A stretch of 64,000 nt of DNA from Leptospiraceae bacterium (GCA_025059995.1 JANXCF010000001.1:310001-374000), one strand, 5' to 3'. Counted from the first letter of the stretch, positions 8,291 to 36,975 are shown. Program-made: numbers and translations. Notes: a model not told the origin generated them from the letters alone.

Positions 8291-9336
8291 AAATAGATAT
8301 TCATCAAGTGAGGGATAGTTATGCGAAAGTATTAAAAGAATTCTCAAAATACTTAGAAGATATACGATATATTGAGCCTTTTCCTTTTTTAGTGGGGAAT
8401 CCACCGAGGGTTTATTTACCATTATCAAACAAGAGGGTTGAGCCACAAATGCAGAGAAAGGAAAGAATTGAATCATCTCACAGTGAGGTAAAAATCACTC
8501 TCAATGAAAACCAGATTTGTCAGCTCTGTTCAAACAAGGCTTATGCGGTTCGAAAATACTTCAAAAAACCCACTAAAGAAGAATTAAAGATTATGATACT
8601 TCACTACAATGGTAGCATAGATAACAATCAAATCCCCAAAGATGTGAGTGAAAAATTCTACTTCTCCTCAAAAGAAGAAGATGAGGTATTCAATCGAATG
8701 TTGTCGTCCTTTCATTATACTTTGGAAAATTTTTATTTTCAAGAGTTTGTTGCTTGTCATTTTTCTTTTCAGAGTTCTCATGAAGAATGGAATACCCGAG
8801 TTCAGAATTGCCTTCCTTTTTTAGAAAAAAACGTAAAAGATCATCAGATTCAAAAGCTGATGATTGTAGGGAGTGCCGCCATCCTTCTATTTGGAAATGA
8901 AGCAAAAGAAATTGTTAAAAAACCTCATTTACTTCCTTTTCACATACATGATTTGGAGTTAAAGGCAATTATATTAAGAAGTCCTCAAGCAATCCTGAAA
9001 TTAGAGCAAAAAAGAAAGGAGCTACAATCACTTTTGCAGAAATATCCAAAAGAATGGGAAGTGTATAACAAAACCAAAGAAATCGATCAAGCGTTAAAAG
9101 AAATCGTTGAAAGCTTACAAAGAAAAGAACAAACAAAAAGAGTCGAGATTGCAAACGTCAAGCTTACACCAGCATCTCAAATCAAAAATGAAAAAACAAT
9201 CGAAAATGAAATCAAAAAACAACTCGGAGAAAGCAAGCTTTTATTATATAAAACCTTTAAAGCCAAAAAAGAAGAAATCGAGGTCAAACAACAAATCGTG
9301 AAATCCCTTGAGGTTTTTTTCCAATCTCAATCGTAA
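8287..9336 (+). CDS. Conserved-looking protein of unknown function between ntrX and priA
   Basis: I do not recognise this 349-residue protein. It has no signal peptide or membrane segment. A CQLCSNKAYAVRKYFKKPT stretch near residues 78-96 carries a CxxC that could bind metal. The middle is globular, and the C-terminal 120 residues are charged and strongly helical (KLEQKRKELQSLLQK and KEEIEVKQQIVKS), probably coiled coil. It overlaps ntrX by four bases (ATGA) and ends three bases before priA, so it belongs to the operon. A role coupled to NtrYX or to replication restart is possible but unsupported by sequence. Confidence 0.75.
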   Translation: MKIDIHQVRDSYAKVLKEFSKYLEDIRYIEPFPFLVGNPPRVYLPLSNKRVEPQMQRKERIESSHSEVKITLNENQICQLCSNKAYAVRKYFKKPTKEELKIMILHYNGSIDNNQIPKDVSEKFYFSSKEEDEVFNRMLSSFHYTLENFYFQEFVACHFSFQSSHEEWNTRVQNCLPFLEKNVKDHQIQKLMIVGSAAILLFGNEAKEIVKKPHLLPFHIHDLELKAIILRSPQAILKLEQKRKELQSLLQKYPKEWEVYNKTKEIDQALKEIVESLQRKEQTKRVEIANVKLTPASQIKNEKTIENEIKKQLGESKLLLYKTFKAKKEEIEVKQQIVKSLEVFFQSQS

Positions 9337-31293: not shown

Positions 31294-31322
31294 TTGACAA
31301 AACAATCGTATTGTTTTTTAAA
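31294..31322 (+). promoter_or_regulatory. Promoter with palindromic operator before the DeoR-NosL regulator
   Basis: TTGACA (-35) at 31294-31299, 17 bases, then TTTAAA (-10-like) at 31317-31322. Between the two lies a perfect inverted repeat AAAACAAT-CGT-ATTGTTTT at 31299-31317. Its position over the spacer is that of a repressor operator, and the first gene downstream encodes an HTH protein, so autoregulation is the simplest reading. No second copy was seen by eye at the neighbouring promoters. Confidence 0.55.
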
Positions 31323-31331
31323 ATCAAAGAT

Positions 31332-31940
31332 ATGAACAAAGAAAAAGAAAATCGAAAGGCTTCTATTTTAGAAATCTTGAAGGAGAAAAAGGTCACAACA
31401 GCCAAAGACTTAAGCAAGATGTTGAATGTATCCGAAATGACCATCTATCGAGATATAAGGGAGCTTTCAAATGAAGGTTTCATTGATAAAAAACACGGAA
31501 GCATTAAGATACAAGAAAAAGAGAACAAACAAAAAATCGAAGATCAAAATCAAAATAAGCAATGTCCTATATGTTTCAAGAATATCAATCCTCAAACTTC
31601 ATACAAAATATTACTTGATACTTCTGAAATCGTTGAGGCTTGTTGTGAGCATTGCGGGTTAATCTTGCATCAAAAATATGAACAAAAAAATGTCGCAGCA
31701 ATTTGCTATGATTTCATTAAGCGACAACCCATCAATTCTTACGAGGCGAATTTTGTTGTGGATTCTCTTGCTGTGCCTTGTTGCAGTCCCAGTGTGATTG
31801 CTTTTAACAATAAAGAAGATGCAGAAAGATTTACGAAAGGTTTTGGAGGAAAAGTTTTAAATTTTGTCGATGCATATAATGAATTAAAAAATAGGTCATC
31901 GAAAAATCTACATTCTTGTTGTCATCCAGTCCGACATTAA
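31332..31940 (+). CDS. DeoR-type HTH regulator fused to a cysteine-rich NosL-like domain
   Basis: 202 residues from ATG 31332 (a TTG at 31311 lies inside the operator and is unlikely). Residues 8-58 are a DeoR-type winged HTH (ILEILKEKKVTTAKDLSKML, SEMTIYRDIRELSNEGFI). A charged linker leads to a NosL-like domain (about 75-190): CPICFKNI, ACCEHCGLIL, FVVDSLAVPCCSPSVIAF and the DAERFTKGFGGKVLNFVDAYNEL ending typical of NosL. Three vicinal Cys pairs (ACCEHC, PCCSP, SCCHP) suggest a thiol, copper or As/Hg-type ligand sensed directly. It opens the redox/peptide locus at 31.3-37 kb. The domain fusion is seen; the effector is inference. Confidence 0.75.
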   Translation: MNKEKENRKASILEILKEKKVTTAKDLSKMLNVSEMTIYRDIRELSNEGFIDKKHGSIKIQEKENKQKIEDQNQNKQCPICFKNINPQTSYKILLDTSEIVEACCEHCGLILHQKYEQKNVAAICYDFIKRQPINSYEANFVVDSLAVPCCSPSVIAFNNKEDAERFTKGFGGKVLNFVDAYNELKNRSSKNLHSCCHPVRH

Positions 31941-32056
31941 AGTAGAAATTAAAGTTTAACTCTTTGATAGGATAGGTTCTTTTAGGAATCTTAAACTTAA
32001 ACTAAATACATAAATTTTAACTTCACTTATTTTGTGTAAAACAATTCTTATGACTT

Positions 32057-32500
32057 TTATTTGGTTTGCATAAATTCTTTGGGATTAGGTTTTACTCCTG
32101 TTTTCTTGTATCGAATATAATCTGATATGATTCTTTTGTGATCGAAAACGAACTCTATGTTCAAAAGTTCATGGATAGGAACTAAGAAAGCTTTCTTTGC
32201 ATCATCGGCTCCCTTGGGTTCTCCTTCAGCTCTGGCTATAAAAACAGAACTGATCGTGTGAAATCTATGATCACGTTTGGGATCGGAATAAGTATATAAA
32301 AAATCATACAACTCAACATCCAACGAAGTTTCTTCTTTGGCTTCTCGTATGGCGGCTTCTTCGAGACTTTCCCACAAATCCACAAAACCACCAGGAAGAG
32401 CAATACCAACAGGAGGATATTTTCTTTCAATCAAGACAATCGAATCACCAATTTCAATAATAATGTCCACACTCGAGAAAGGCGTTTTGATTTCCATCAT
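32057..32500 (-). CDS. Nudix hydrolase
   Basis: 147 residues with the Nudix box [23 protein letters not shown], matching GX5EX7REUXEEXGU except for Ser at the last Gly. [21 protein letters not shown] and the [15 protein letters not shown] strand are similar to ADP-ribose or general NDP-X pyrophosphatases, but substrate cannot be told from sequence. Two tandem ATG codons open the gene, and either may serve. It stands between the regulator and the C_GCxxG_C_C gene but on the opposite strand to the regulator, so its link to that locus is only positional. Confidence 0.88.
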
Positions 32501-32642
32501 TAGAACATTTTATTGAAAAATATAACGTCAACTTAAAAGTAAAACTAATGTGAAATGTAGAATAAAAAACAAAAGATAGATAAAAAAATTAACGAAAAGA
32601 AAATAGTTTAATGATTTTATAAATTTATTTAATTAATTGAAT

Positions 32643-33146
32643 TTAATTTTTTTGATTTTCTTTTAGTTTTTTTGCGAATTCTAAGGCATATTTAGTTGAA
32701 AAGGCAATATATACACCACAAGTATGCAAGTCGAAGTCCTTATCGAATGGAACATCACAATCATGTCCACTTAAGTGCTTGCAGAGAGTTCCCTTGAAAG
32801 TTTGCTCGAAGTTGTCGTAGAATTTTTGGGCGAATTCTCGAATTTCTTTTTTGTTGTATCCTTTTTCGGCTGCGTATTTACTTATGAAGCTAATACCACT
32901 TAAAAGAGCTCCACAGGTTTCTCCTTTTCCAGCAATCCCTTTCCCAAAACCACTTACAAAGGCTTTGTATTGTAATGAAGGAACTTGATCGAATTCTGCA
33001 ATCGATGAGGCAATGGCTTCGGAACAATTATCTGAACCATAAACGAAATTATCAGAGGCTTTTTGAACAAAATCTTTTATGTCATCTTCAGAGGAATTAA
33101 CAATCTCTTCAATCATATCTTTGGGAGTTAATTTTGTTTTTTCCAT
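32643..33146 (-). CDS. C_GCxxG_C_C family probable redox protein
   Basis: 167 residues from ATG 33146 (a TTG at 33182 would extend it by 12 residues). The pattern that names the family is present: NCSEAIASSIAEF, then GFGKGIAGKGETCGALLSG, then GTLCKHLSGHDCDVPF and HTCGVYIAFS. Family members are small predicted redox or metal proteins often encoded near selenium, sulphur or methyltransferase genes. It is divergent from the thioredoxin-reductase fusion at 33316 and shares the 133-base control region with it, which supports a joint thiol-redox function. Confidence 0.82.
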   Translation of the reverse strand: MEKTKLTPKDMIEEIVNSSEDDIKDFVQKASDNFVYGSDNCSEAIASSIAEFDQVPSLQYKAFVSGFGKGIAGKGETCGALLSGISFISKYAAEKGYNKKEIREFAQKFYDNFEQTFKGTLCKHLSGHDCDVPFDKDFDLHTCGVYIAFSTKYALEFAKKLKENQKN

Positions 33147-33269
33147 AGTTGCCAAAAAATTAAGAAATGTTTTTTTCGTCAAATAGATTATACACGTATT
33201 ATGTATTTGTAGTCAGTGAATTAATTTTTTGTTGCCAAAGACAAACTTAAATATTTTATGGTAATTACA

Positions 33270-33290
33270 TTATACCTGTATGGGGTATAA
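33270..33290. promoter_or_regulatory. Inverted repeat upstream of the Trx-TrxR fusion, CsoR/CstR-like
   Basis: TTATACC, seven bases, GGTATAA: a perfect 7-bp inverted repeat 26 bases before the fusion gene. The inner part (ATACC...GGGGTAT) resembles operators of the CsoR family, whose members sense copper, nickel or persulfide. No CsoR-type gene is in the window. A divergent promoter for the C_GCxxG_C_C gene shares this gap. The repeat is certain; the regulator is a guess. Confidence 0.4.
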
Positions 33291-33315
33291 GCATCCTATC
33301 GATTAGGAGGAAGTT

Positions 33316-34659
33316 ATGGGTAAAAACGTGATTGAAATCCAAGCACAAGATTATGAAAAATACGTGCTACAATCAGACAAACCCGTGATTTTGGATTTTT
33401 ATTCCGATGAATGTGTTCCTTGCGAAGCGTTAGCACCGAAATATGAAGAACTATCAGAAATTTTTGGTGATAAGATTGTGTTTCTCAAGATGTGGAGGCA
33501 AAAAAATCGTGAACTTGCTTTGAGTTTAGGTGTAAGGTCAAGCCCAACTTTGATTTTTTATCAACCTCGCGGAAAGGAAGTAGGGAAAAGACTCACAGGC
33601 GGAATTAAGAAAAAAGAAATCATCGAACAAATCTCAAATCTGATTGGAGAAGAAGAAGTCAAAAAGAGACTTTCTCAAAAACCAAAGAAAAGGCGTGATG
33701 TAGATGTGATTGTCTTGGGTGGTGGTCCAACAGGATTAACAGCAGGTCTTTATCTGGCTCAGGCGAAATTGGATACGATTATAATAGATCAAGATTTGCC
33801 AGGTGGTCAAGTCAAAATTACTCACATGATCTCGAATTTCCCGGGGACAGGTGGTCCTATCTCTGGCTGGGAGTTGGGAGAAAGAATGCAAAAACAGGTT
33901 CGAGAAGCTGGTGCCGAAATCATTAGTGCCGTTGATGTGACAAAAGTAAAATTACAACCAAGAGATCACGTTGTTTGGATTGATGATGATTTAGAAATCC
34001 ACGGAAAAGCAATCATATTAGCGATGGGATCAGAACCCAGAAAACTAAAAGTTCCCGGCGAAGAAGAATACAAAGGACATGGAATCTCTTATTGTGCTAC
34101 TTGTGATGGTAAATATTACGAAGGAAAAGAAGTAGTGGTCGTTGGGGGTGGTAACTCAGCTGTAGAAGAGTCTCTGTTCTTGACGAAGTTTGTAAATAAA
34201 GTAACAATTGTTCATCAGTTTGATCATCTACAAGCCAATAAAACTGCTCAAGAACAAGCCTTTCAAAATCCCAAAATTCACTTTGTATGGAATAGCGAAC
34301 CGAGAGCCTTCGAGAAACTCCCTGATGGTCGGATGAAGGTGACTATTGAAAATGTAAAAACCAAAGAATACTCTGATATAATCACTGATGGAGTCTTCAT
34401 CTTCGTTGGGTATGTACCTAATTTGTCCATTATCGAAGAGGATTTGGCTAAAGACAAGTGGGGTTATCTAATCACAGATGAAGATATGAGAACAAGCATT
34501 GAAGGAGTGTTCGCAGCTGGGGATTTGCGTTCCAAAAAATATCGACAAGTAACAATCTCTGTTGGTGAAGGAACCATTGCAGCGATGAGTTGCGAAAGAT
34601 ACATTGCAGAATTAAATCATGAATTAAAGAAAGAAAAAGATTTAGTATTAACGAAATAA
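33316..34659 (+). CDS. Thioredoxin-thioredoxin reductase fusion with altered cofactor site
   Basis: 447 residues in one frame. Residues 1-110 are a thioredoxin domain with CVPC (Cys33, Cys36) in place of CGPC and a cis-Pro in SSPTLI. Residues 120-447 are a low-molecular-weight thioredoxin reductase: FAD motif VIVLGGGPTGLTAG, redox CATC (Cys260, Cys263), nucleotide motif VVGGGNSAVEE and the closing GVFAAGDLR. The NADPH-selective HRRxxxRA segment reads HQFDHLQA, so the three arginines that hold the 2'-phosphate are missing. NADH or another donor is thus likely. AGGAGG precedes the ATG. Known Trx-TrxR fusions such as that of Mycobacterium leprae have the opposite domain order. Confidence 0.9.
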   Translation: MGKNVIEIQAQDYEKYVLQSDKPVILDFYSDECVPCEALAPKYEELSEIFGDKIVFLKMWRQKNRELALSLGVRSSPTLIFYQPRGKEVGKRLTGGIKKKEIIEQISNLIGEEEVKKRLSQKPKKRRDVDVIVLGGGPTGLTAGLYLAQAKLDTIIIDQDLPGGQVKITHMISNFPGTGGPISGWELGERMQKQVREAGAEIISAVDVTKVKLQPRDHVVWIDDDLEIHGKAIILAMGSEPRKLKVPGEEEYKGHGISYCATCDGKYYEGKEVVVVGGGNSAVEESLFLTKFVNKVTIVHQFDHLQANKTAQEQAFQNPKIHFVWNSEPRAFEKLPDGRMKVTIENVKTKEYSDIITDGVFIFVGYVPNLSIIEEDLAKDKWGYLITDEDMRTSIEGVFAAGDLRSKKYRQVTISVGEGTIAAMSCERYIAELNHELKKEKDLVLTK

Positions 34660-34680
34660 AAAATTTTTGGTTCCCTGAAG

Positions 34681-35322
34681 ATGGAATTGTTGTTTTTAGA
34701 TTCCATAAAAGTTCGATATGCACAAGAGGCAGATGCTGCATGCTGCCTTTCTTGTGGCTCTCCCATTGAATATTCTTTTTTGAAGCCTGGAGAAGTCTTG
34801 GTTGATTTGGGTTCGGGCAGAGGAACAGACGTAATTAAAGCAACTAAATATATAGGTTCCTCTGGAAAAGCAATTGGGATTGATGCAACCCCAGAGATGA
34901 TATCAGTGGCAAAAAGAAATGCCGAAAAGCTACGCTTAAAAAATGTAGATTTCCTTCTAGGTGAGATTGAGAACATACCTCTCGGTGATGAAGTTGCAGA
35001 TGTGGTGATTTCTAATTGTGTTATTAATCACGCAAAGGACAAAGCGAAGGTTTATCAAGAAATTTATCGTATCCTCAAACCCAATGGTAGATTTGTGATT
35101 TCTGATATTATAGCCGAGAAGGAATTACCAGAGGAAGTCAAAAATGATCCAGAATCTTGGGCACAATGTTATGGTGGAGCCATCACAAAAGAAGAGTATT
35201 TTCTTGCTATAGCAAAGGCAAACTTCAAGGAAATTGAAATCTTAGAAGAAAGTGCACCATACGAGAAAGGGAAAGAACGAGTCCTCATAAGAAGTATCAC
35301 AATTCGGGGATACAAAAAATAG
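34681..35322 (+). CDS. ArsM-like SAM-dependent methyltransferase
   Basis: 213 residues of the arsenite/metalloid methyltransferase group. The SAM site VLVDLGSGRGTD, GIDATPEMISVAKRNA and the VISNCVINHAKDK segment match ArsM closely. Of the Cys used by ArsM, Cys163 (AQCYGGA) and the Cys113 region are kept; near the N-terminus is CCLSCG (Cys21, 22, 25). The N-terminal region before the core is shorter than in classical ArsM. The gene lies between the Trx fusion (reductant) and a peptide gene, so it may methylate a metalloid, or the peptide itself. There is no arsR, arsC or arsB pump nearby. Its stop lies inside the next gene's Shine-Dalgarno. Confidence 0.78.
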   Translation: MELLFLDSIKVRYAQEADAACCLSCGSPIEYSFLKPGEVLVDLGSGRGTDVIKATKYIGSSGKAIGIDATPEMISVAKRNAEKLRLKNVDFLLGEIENIPLGDEVADVVISNCVINHAKDKAKVYQEIYRILKPNGRFVISDIIAEKELPEEVKNDPESWAQCYGGAITKEEYFLAIAKANFKEIEILEESAPYEKGKERVLIRSITIRGYKK

Positions 35323-35332
35323 GAGGTAAAAA

Positions 35333-35449
35333 ATGACAAAAACAAAAGGAATTCGCCCAATTTCCAGACCAAAACCAGTAGAAAAGTTGGTAAAAGTAGC
35401 TCAGTGCTGCTCCAAACAATCTAAAATTATCTCTGGTTGTCACGATTAA
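35333..35449 (+). CDS. 38-residue Cys-containing peptide, candidate radical-SAM substrate
   Basis: A short gene not in standard-length ORF calls. AGGAGGT at 35321-35327, a perfect anti-16S match, stands five bases before ATG 35333, and an intrinsic terminator follows the stop directly, so the gene is well supported. The peptide has a basic, Pro-rich first half (KGIRPISRPKPVEKL), like a leader, and a second half with a vicinal Cys pair and a third Cys (AQCCSKQSKIISGCHD), like a core. There is no signal peptide. It lies between an ArsM-like methyltransferase and a radical SAM/SPASM enzyme. I know no family with this sequence; RiPP precursor or metalloid-binding peptide is inferred from context. 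Confidence 0.75.
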   Translation: MTKTKGIRPISRPKPVEKLVKVAQCCSKQSKIISGCHD

Positions 35450-35454
35450 TTACT

Positions 35455-35476
35455 GCCCCACCTGGGGCTTTTTTTT
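35455..35476 (+). terminator. Intrinsic terminator after the peptide gene
   Basis: GCCCC-ACCT-GGGGC (35455-35468), a five-pair GC stem with a four-base loop, then eight T. It starts six bases after the peptide stop and before the radical SAM gene, a position that would keep the peptide message abundant and let a little transcription reach the enzyme, as is common between RiPP precursors and maturases. Confidence 0.85.
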
Positions 35477-35502
35477 AGTTTCAAAAACAAAAGGTGGTGA
35501 GT

Positions 35503-36975
35503 ATGATAAAATCCCGCTATACTTTTACGTTTGAAACTCCCTCAAAGCGTTTTTTCATCATGAATTACCTGACAGGTGCTATTGATGAGGTCCTTCCAGA
35601 AGAAAGAGAAGAATTAGAAAAAAGACTCGAGAAAAATGAATGGTCAGATTATCATTTGAAAGATTACTTTTTAGAACGAGGTTATCTTTTTCCATCCGTA
35701 GAAGACGAACAAGAATACATTCACGAAAAATATATCGAATTTTTGGAAGAATACGAAAATACGCCAGTTCAAATCATCTTTTCTACTACTTATGCATGTA
35801 ATTTTTCTTGTGTTTATTGTTTTCAAGAGAGTTATAAAGAAAATTCGAAAATCATCACACCTGAAGTTACAAATGCGTTTTTCCAATACATTTCTATTCA
35901 ATTTGCCAATGAAAAAATCAAGCCATATATTACCTTATTTGGTGGTGAACCTTTACTCGGTGGTGAGCGATACAAAAAAAATCTTTTGTATTTCTTAGAA
36001 AAAGCCAAAGAATACGATTACGAAATCACGATTGTGACCAATGGCTATGAGCTTGTAAATTACGTTCTGGACTTCAAGAGAATTGGGGTTCGAATCAGAG
36101 AAATTCAAGTAAGTATTGATGGAAGTCCTGAACAGCACAACAAACGAAGACCCACAGCATCTGGTAAACCTACGTTTGAACGAGTAGCTCTCGGTGTTTC
36201 CGAAGCCCTAAAAAGTGGGTATCGAGTCAATCTAAGAATGATTGTTGATAAAGAAAATTTGCCCACACTCGTAAAATTAGCAGAATACGCAGAAGAAGCT
36301 GGTTGGTTGAATTATTCAGATTCGTTTTTTGAAACTACGATTGGAAGAAATTATGAACTACATACATGCCAACCCAAAGCAAGCCTGTATAACCGAGTTG
36401 AGCTCTGGAAGGATTTTATCGACTTAGCTGAGAAATATCCCATTATGAAGAAATTTCACAAACCCCATTTTCATGGTATACGATACTTGGCGGAAAACGG
36501 CACTTTGCCAATGCCGATTTTTGATGGTTGTCCTGCGGGGAAAAAAGAATGGGCATTTGACTTATACGGGAATATCTATGGTTGCACGGCATCTGTTGGA
36601 GTTGAGAAATACAAACTGGGAAACATATTCGAAAACACAAAATTAGTCAAAGATTCTGTCAGGCTACAGAGTTATAGTCCAGAGGCTATTGATGCAGAAG
36701 TAAAGTTTATAAACACATCACATAAACCTGAAATGTACCACCAAGCGGTTTTATTGAAGGACAGTCAAGAAGAACAGCGTTTGAAGTGGCAAACCAGAGA
36801 TGTTCTGTCTATTCCTGAATGTAGAACCTGTCCAGTTTCATTGTCATGTGGTGGAGGCTGTGGAGTATTAGCAGCAAATCGAACAGGAGAAATTTTATCT
36901 CCTGATTGTAGACCTGTGAAGGAAATTGTTTCTATGGCAATAGATTATTATCGAATAGGTCTCGAGGAAACCTAA
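35503..36975 (+). CDS. Radical SAM/SPASM peptide-maturase-like enzyme
   Basis: 490 residues from ATG 35503, where AAGGTGGTG serves as Shine-Dalgarno; two GTG codons upstream in frame are less likely. Residues 1-90 are a helical domain that could hold a peptide-recognition element. The radical SAM motif is CNFSCVYC (Cys99, 103, 106), then LFGGEPLL and IVTNGYEL. The C-terminal SPASM cysteines fit the full pattern: CPAG...GNIYGC (C-X12-G-X4-C), CRTCPVSLSCGGGC (C-X2-C-X5-C-X3-C) and a last SPDC, so two extra 4Fe-4S clusters are expected. Such enzymes install thioether or carbon crosslinks on small peptides, and the 38-residue peptide upstream is the obvious substrate. Ends four bases into folD (convergent). 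Confidence 0.88.
   Translation: MIKSRYTFTFETPSKRFFIMNYLTGAIDEVLPEEREELEKRLEKNEWSDYHLKDYFLERGYLFPSVEDEQEYIHEKYIEFLEEYENTPVQIIFSTTYACNFSCVYCFQESYKENSKIITPEVTNAFFQYISIQFANEKIKPYITLFGGEPLLGGERYKKNLLYFLEKAKEYDYEITIVTNGYELVNYVLDFKRIGVRIREIQVSIDGSPEQHNKRRPTASGKPTFERVALGVSEALKSGYRVNLRMIVDKENLPTLVKLAEYAEEAGWLNYSDSFFETTIGRNYELHTCQPKASLYNRVELWKDFIDLAEKYPIMKKFHKPHFHGIRYLAENGTLPMPIFDGCPAGKKEWAFDLYGNIYGCTASVGVEKYKLGNIFENTKLVKDSVRLQSYSPEAIDAEVKFINTSHKPEMYHQAVLLKDSQEEQRLKWQTRDVLSIPECRTCPVSLSCGGGCGVLAANRTGEILSPDCRPVKEIVSMAIDYYRIGLEET

Follow-up and report, generated by a model that had tools for sequence, protein, structure and literature searches.

Described systems related to the locus

Peptide maturases of the SCIFF/ranthipeptide group (CteB, PapB, CefB NF038107, TIGR04463) combine an RRE-like domain with radical SAM and SPASM domains and have a short Cys-rich substrate encoded next door. 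A similar layout, with an RRE-like domain predicted from a model, is seen in the locus described here, which lies in a window of 64,000 nucleotides from a Leptospiraceae bacterium (GCA_025059995.1, JANXCF010000001.1:310001-374000; positions are counted from the first letter of this stretch), and these enzymes are the nearest to its maturase by fold and profile. However, that maturase falls far under the family cut-offs (CefB, 130 vs 600 bits), its substrate has a different invariant core, and the unit adds an ArsM-type methyltransferase and a thioredoxin-thioredoxin reductase (Trx-TrxR) fusion as partners. Cofactor RiPPs of the mycofactocin/PQQ type, meanwhile, have a highly conserved core, no exporter and an RRE with a radical SAM enzyme; the unit resembles them in having a conserved core, no recurring exporter and a radical SAM enzyme with a predicted RRE-like domain, but differs in the core itself and in the enzymes.

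Regarding the methyltransferase, it has the fold and the three arsenite-binding cysteines of ArsM (PRK11873; CmArsM, 4kw7), differing in its length of about 210 aa, in the signature SNCxxNH in place of SNCxxNL, in a score under the PRK11873 cut-off and in its separate position in an unrooted tree. A radical SAM enzyme paired with ArsM, as in the unit, is described for arsinothricin (ArsL and ArsM) and for arsenosugars (ArsS and ArsM) (PMC8552651); ArsL, however, works on arsenite itself, is described with a single cluster and not as a SPASM protein, and has no precursor peptide. ArsM-like or vicinal-Cys proteins with redox partners also occur in the arsenite methyltransferase selenoprotein fusions and the TrsS/Sao selenoprotein families of NCBIfam (PMC13188914), for which no description was found of a precursor peptide accompanied by a SPASM maturase like this one, and the enzymes of the unit have no in-frame stop codon suggesting selenocysteine. 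The open-access literature yielded no description of the gene set, of the core motif or of an arsenic RiPP, and the pathway apparently represents a new RiPP class, undescribed in NCBIfam and in that literature. A preliminary description of this DNA had proposed an undescribed peptide-modification locus, which is borne out by its recurrence in other genomes, with no curated family or open-access paper found for it.

Gene organization and extent of the unit

The host is a spirochaete with a genome of 2.4 Mb, whose closest public relatives are Leptospiraceae MAGs. All the genes named in the preliminary description exist where it placed them, including a DeoR/NosL regulator (HTH_DeoR 7e-12 and NosL 8e-7 by profile search), likely starting at ATG 31332, and a C_GCAxxG_C_C protein (3e-17) on the minus strand at 32643-33182. 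The regulator (31332-31940, plus strand) is unusual in itself, as it joins a DeoR-type HTH to a NosL-like metal-binding domain that contains several vicinal Cys pairs. The extent initially given to the cluster, 31294-36975, was too wide, since the sole block that recurs when loci are compared across spirochaete genomes is 33316-36975. The unit is composed of four genes, encoding the Trx-TrxR fusion, the ArsM-type methyltransferase, the peptide and the radical SAM/SPASM enzyme, with the following features:

33270..33290, strand not assigned (.): candidate operator dyad TTATACC-TGTATGG-GGTATAA, about 25 bp 5' of the first gene
33316..34659, plus strand: Trx-TrxR fusion (Pfam/NCBIfam), thioredoxin CVPC and thioredoxin reductase CATC, predicted supplier of reducing thiols
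34681..35322, plus strand: short ArsM-type SAM methyltransferase, signature SNCxxNH (family match, alignment, AF2 model)
35333..35449, plus strand: RiPP precursor peptide, 38 aa, MTKTKGIRPISRPKPVEKLVKV-AQCCSKQSKIISGCHD (recurrence and alignment)
35333..35398, plus strand: peptide leader region, variable among genomes (alignment)
35399..35446, plus strand: peptide core AQCC-x-K-x-[ST]-x4-GCHD-COOH, invariant positions in 35/35 loci (alignment)
35455..35476, plus strand: terminator-like hairpin GCCCC-ACCT-GGGGC then T8, between peptide and maturase (sequence)
35503..36975, plus strand: radical SAM/SPASM peptide maturase with predicted N-terminal RRE-like domain (profile, alignment, fold match)

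The alignment of the SPASM protein with its homologues begins at MIKS, which makes ATG 35503 a more likely start of the gene than GTG 35494. Hairpins similar to the one preceding this gene occur in 9/35 loci, among them the window, G008 and the three congeners of the window, and the hairpin would favour a high expression of the peptide relative to the enzyme.

Distribution and gene neighbourhood

Using the radical SAM protein as anchor, the unit was found in about 37 of 393 Spirochaetota genomes drawn evenly, roughly 1 in 10, and all distribution figures refer to this phylum, throughout which homologues of the maturase occur in around 20 families with 35-81% identity. A total of 35 loci are readable (the window, L038-L052 and L072-L090), and all of them hold the peptide, which is directly beside the maturase in 34 and between methyltransferase and maturase in 34; the exception is L050, where it lies about 1.6 kb off on the opposite strand. 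Homologues of the SPASM enzyme are thus not found to lack a Cys peptide consistently, and the pairing of both that the preliminary description had put at the core of the locus holds in 35/35 cases. It had also joined an ArsM-like methyltransferase to a thioredoxin partner, and indeed the methyltransferase accompanies the maturase in 35/35 loci. The Trx-TrxR fusion adjoins the unit in 30, lies 3.6 kb off in one and is non-adjacent in another (L043), the contig ending before its position in the remaining three. The gene order is TrxR-MT-peptide-rSAM in the class of the window and MT-peptide-rSAM-TrxR elsewhere. A weak homologue of the maturase (L091, 24% identity), with no such peptide at its locus, probably belongs to another family.

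The DeoR/NosL regulator, the C_GCAxxG protein and a Nudix protein encoded between these two were rejected as parts of the unit because no homologue of them occurs near it at any other locus examined, being local neighbours in the window only; two of these, the regulator and the C_GCAxxG protein, had been counted as cluster members. Other accessory genes recur in subgroups, namely a MarR regulator (6 loci), DUF5714 (4), DUF1847 (3) and chemotaxis receptors. The most distant subgroup (L051, L086, L089, L090) has the DUF5714 protein next to the unit, and the chemotaxis receptor gene is found on the same strand in two separate lineages, upstream in L049, L079 and L080 and downstream in L086, L089 and L090. 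Among the neighbouring genes, none for a protease, an exporter or immunity is recurrent. The plasmid search returned only one Rhodococcus radical SAM protein of 27% identity with different neighbours, and no copy of the unit was found in viral contigs.

The precursor peptide

When the 35 peptides are aligned, AQCC at positions -16 to -13, K at -11, S/T at -9, G at -4 and the C-terminal CHD are present with no exceptions, the remaining core positions varying within small classes. This fixed 16-residue C-terminus, the core, follows a leader of 14-36 residues that varies in length and sequence, usually begins with MK-x-[LIV] and has a good ribosome-binding site. Relative to its three congeners, the window shows 5-8 codon differences in the core, all of them synonymous, so that no residue is changed. 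The 38-residue peptide is a real gene and no chance ORF, because 34 further loci have it, with the C-terminus unchanged, with good ribosome-binding sites and, within the genus, with synonymous core codon changes only. No Pfam or NCBIfam family matches it, apart from a weak NCBIfam hit (E 0.2) to an ArsD-related vicinal-Cys family. In L076 the peptide (8381-8476, minus strand) has a partly duplicated core (AAQCCATAQCCAKISSIVAGCHD), and an extra CC is present in several other leaders, for example in L051, L073, L078 and L084.

A variable leader is thus joined to a fixed core in the 35 loci, and a short precursor gene is conserved directly beside its modifying enzyme in 34/35. On the basis of this gene anatomy, it is highly probable that the four genes constitute a RiPP pathway.

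The radical SAM/SPASM maturase

The maturase matches Radical_SAM of Pfam (8e-17), with C99, C103 and C106 as the CX3CX2C motif and C343, C361, C440, C443, C449, C453 and C469 in the SPASM region (C-x2-C-x5-C-x3-C plus flanking cysteines). These three cluster and seven SPASM-region cysteines are invariant in 34 full sequences. The closest solved structures are CteB, a thioether SCIFF maturase, anSME, SuiB, TigE and ChlB, with CteB being the nearest both by profile (5wgg, 1.6e-26) and by fold (5why, 1.6e-17); by analogy, a thioether-type chemistry is likely for this enzyme. Its NCBIfam relatives are the RiPP maturases CefB, TIGR04463, PapB and SCIFF, CefB being the best match, and it is below all curated cut-offs. 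In the AlphaFold2 model (pLDDT 84 overall, above 90 for the N-terminal domain), the N-terminal 85 residues or so are folded as bbb-aaa, and the maturase has long matches to CteB, SuiB and TigE. This is the topology of PqqD-like recognition domains, and the N-terminal domain is predicted from the model to be an RRE-like leader recognition element. Extra CC/CCC tails (ACCCKG, VLCC, EVCCC) were observed at the C-termini of the methyltransferase in L050 and of the maturase in L045 and L046; they resemble those on some metal-handling proteins and were counted in favour of the pathway proposed below.

The ArsM-type methyltransferase

The methyltransferase scores 238 bits against arsenite methyltransferase PRK11873, under the cut-off of 263, and its best solved match by profile is CmArsM (6e-39), the AF2 model having a pLDDT of 92. 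The residues C25, C113 and C163 of the window protein align with Cys72, Cys174 and Cys224 of CmArsM, which are its arsenite ligands (PMC3877260). Among the cluster copies, C25 is present in 31/32 (with one gap) and C113 and C163 in 32/32. The motif SNCxxNH occurs in all 27 cluster copies where it could be located, compared to SNCxxNL in nine non-cluster ArsM of the same genomes, from which the cluster copies stand apart in the tree (unrooted, with one bad row, L118).

Many genomes with the unit hold a separate ArsM, and in several of them a canonical arsM is distinct from the cluster copy, which for this reason is a specialised one; the cluster copies form a specialised short subgroup of ArsM (about 210 aa). 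As the tree is unrooted, it does not prove a single origin of the subgroup.

The upstream dyad and regulation

The candidate dyad 5' of the Trx-TrxR gene exists as a single copy in the window, with 0.1 expected by chance, and dyads occur at the same position in four other Leptospirales-type operons (L041, L038, L040, L052). In L041 of G008 it reads ATACCCCATAGGGGTAT, with the pattern ATACCCC-N-GGGGTAT. The G008 dyad, and partly that of the window, resembles CsoR/CstR operators. Across the Leptospirales-type operons, the element is closer in appearance to a CsoR/CstR operator than to that of ArsR. Counted genome-wide, the loose pattern shows no clear excess over the reversed control, and the dyad is for that reason a lead only. 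In G008, a rhodanese gene (L144:1854) and a small lipoprotein-like gene (L145:2108) are preceded by similar sites. These genomes have a single CsoR-family protein, in which the His expected of a copper-type CsoR is missing.

Proposed pathway and the element involved

According to the pathway proposed here, the radical SAM/SPASM enzyme would bind the peptide leader through its RRE-like domain and then modify the invariant core AQCC..K.S....GCHD; the most likely outcome is a thioether from one or more Cys sulfurs to residues nearby, as in CteB. The mature peptide, small and handling soft metalloids or thiols, would remain intracellular. Whatever its remaining thiols carry, most probably arsenic(III), may be the substrate of the ArsM-type methyltransferase, and the Trx-TrxR fusion would keep the cysteines of peptide and enzymes reduced, the order of these steps being presumptive. 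Taken as a whole, namely an apparently undescribed RiPP class with a modified Cys-core peptide, an intracellular soft-metalloid/thiol role and an ArsM-type step most likely on arsenic(III), this reading is given slightly less than an even chance. The metalloid or thiol flavour ascribed to the locus in the preliminary description is supported.

Regarding the element, arsenic is plausible. In G057 the unit is found within an ars island with Acr3 (437 bits), ArsC, two ArsR-type regulators, an ArsM paralogue and a SaoE/ArsP-like permease, and in G027 it is closely preceded by an ArsP_1 permease gene. Against arsenic, no ars genes are near most loci, no Acr3 over the cut-off was found in the genus of the window, and no ArsP_1 in G000, G002 and G003. 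The CsoR/CstR-like dyad and the separate canonical arsM of several of these genomes also weigh against it. Acr3 is present in 27/38 genomes with the unit and in 104/355 without it (Fisher p 7e-7), but its co-occurrence was rejected as proof of arsenic, since a MerA-like control is equally enriched (20/38 vs 47/355); genome-wide co-occurrence thus does not discriminate and may reflect lifestyle or genome size. Cu-ATPases are near-universal, their co-occurrence being uninformative, and selenium has no direct support. Whether arsenic(III) is the species methylated is about an even call, with sulfane sulfur as its main rival.

Alternative functions

Sulfur is central to a possible, although rather unlikely, alternative in which the matured peptide is a dithiol or persulfide carrier recycled by Trx-TrxR, a redox cofactor whose thiol or persulfide, and not arsenic, is methylated by the ArsM-like enzyme. 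The Trx-TrxR partner of 30/35 loci is consistent with it, as are the CsoR/CstR-like dyad, the similar site just 5' of the rhodanese gene in G008, the single CsoR-family protein without the copper-type His and the DsrE-like and DUF5714 neighbours in the distant subgroup. However, a plain thiol methyltransferase would not need the three arsenite cysteines that are kept here, the dyad counts are not clearly above the reversed control genome-wide, and there are one ars island and one ArsP neighbour to account for.

A stronger form of the arsenic reading, doubtful at present, is an arsenic-containing RiPP, where the SPASM enzyme and the ArsM-type methyltransferase would jointly produce an organoarsenic group, either attached to the CC...GCHD core or bound by it, yielding a peptide-borne organoarsenical natural product or cofactor. 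It is unlikely that the peptide is instead a chelator of copper or another soft metal, its CC..GCH core binding Cu(I) or Hg(II) and the methyltransferase capping the peptide. NosL is a Cu(I) binder, and its domain in the upstream regulator of the window agrees with this, together with the Cys/His core and the CsoR-like dyad; nevertheless, that regulator adjoins the unit in the window only, the neighbourhood has no recurrent copper gene and no Cu-ATPase family match was obtained in the window genome at the threshold used.

It is quite improbable that the peptide is an unmodified small metallochaperone presenting an arsenite-thiolate substrate to the methyltransferase with the radical SAM enzyme at work elsewhere. 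An As(III)-S3 site could arise from the three invariant cysteines, and the vicinal CC resembles ArsD-type sites, as the weak match above suggests, but a variable leader, a fixed core and a SPASM enzyme with a predicted RRE-like domain directly downstream are a RiPP layout, and maturase and peptide are together in all readable loci. An antimicrobial or signalling RiPP is hardly credible: radical SAM/SPASM RiPPs include bacteriocins, but a core almost invariant across some 20 families, fixed over phylum-wide divergence, with no recurring exporter, protease or immunity gene is unlike a diversifying antibiotic.

Significance of the proposed pathway

Under the proposed pathway, Spirochaetota would possess a phylum-wide peptide pathway in which RiPP chemistry goes together with an ArsM-type methyltransferase and a dedicated thioredoxin system. 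A peptide carrying arsenic would link RiPP biology to the metabolism of arsenic, and one carrying sulfane sulfur would represent a new peptide thiol cofactor.
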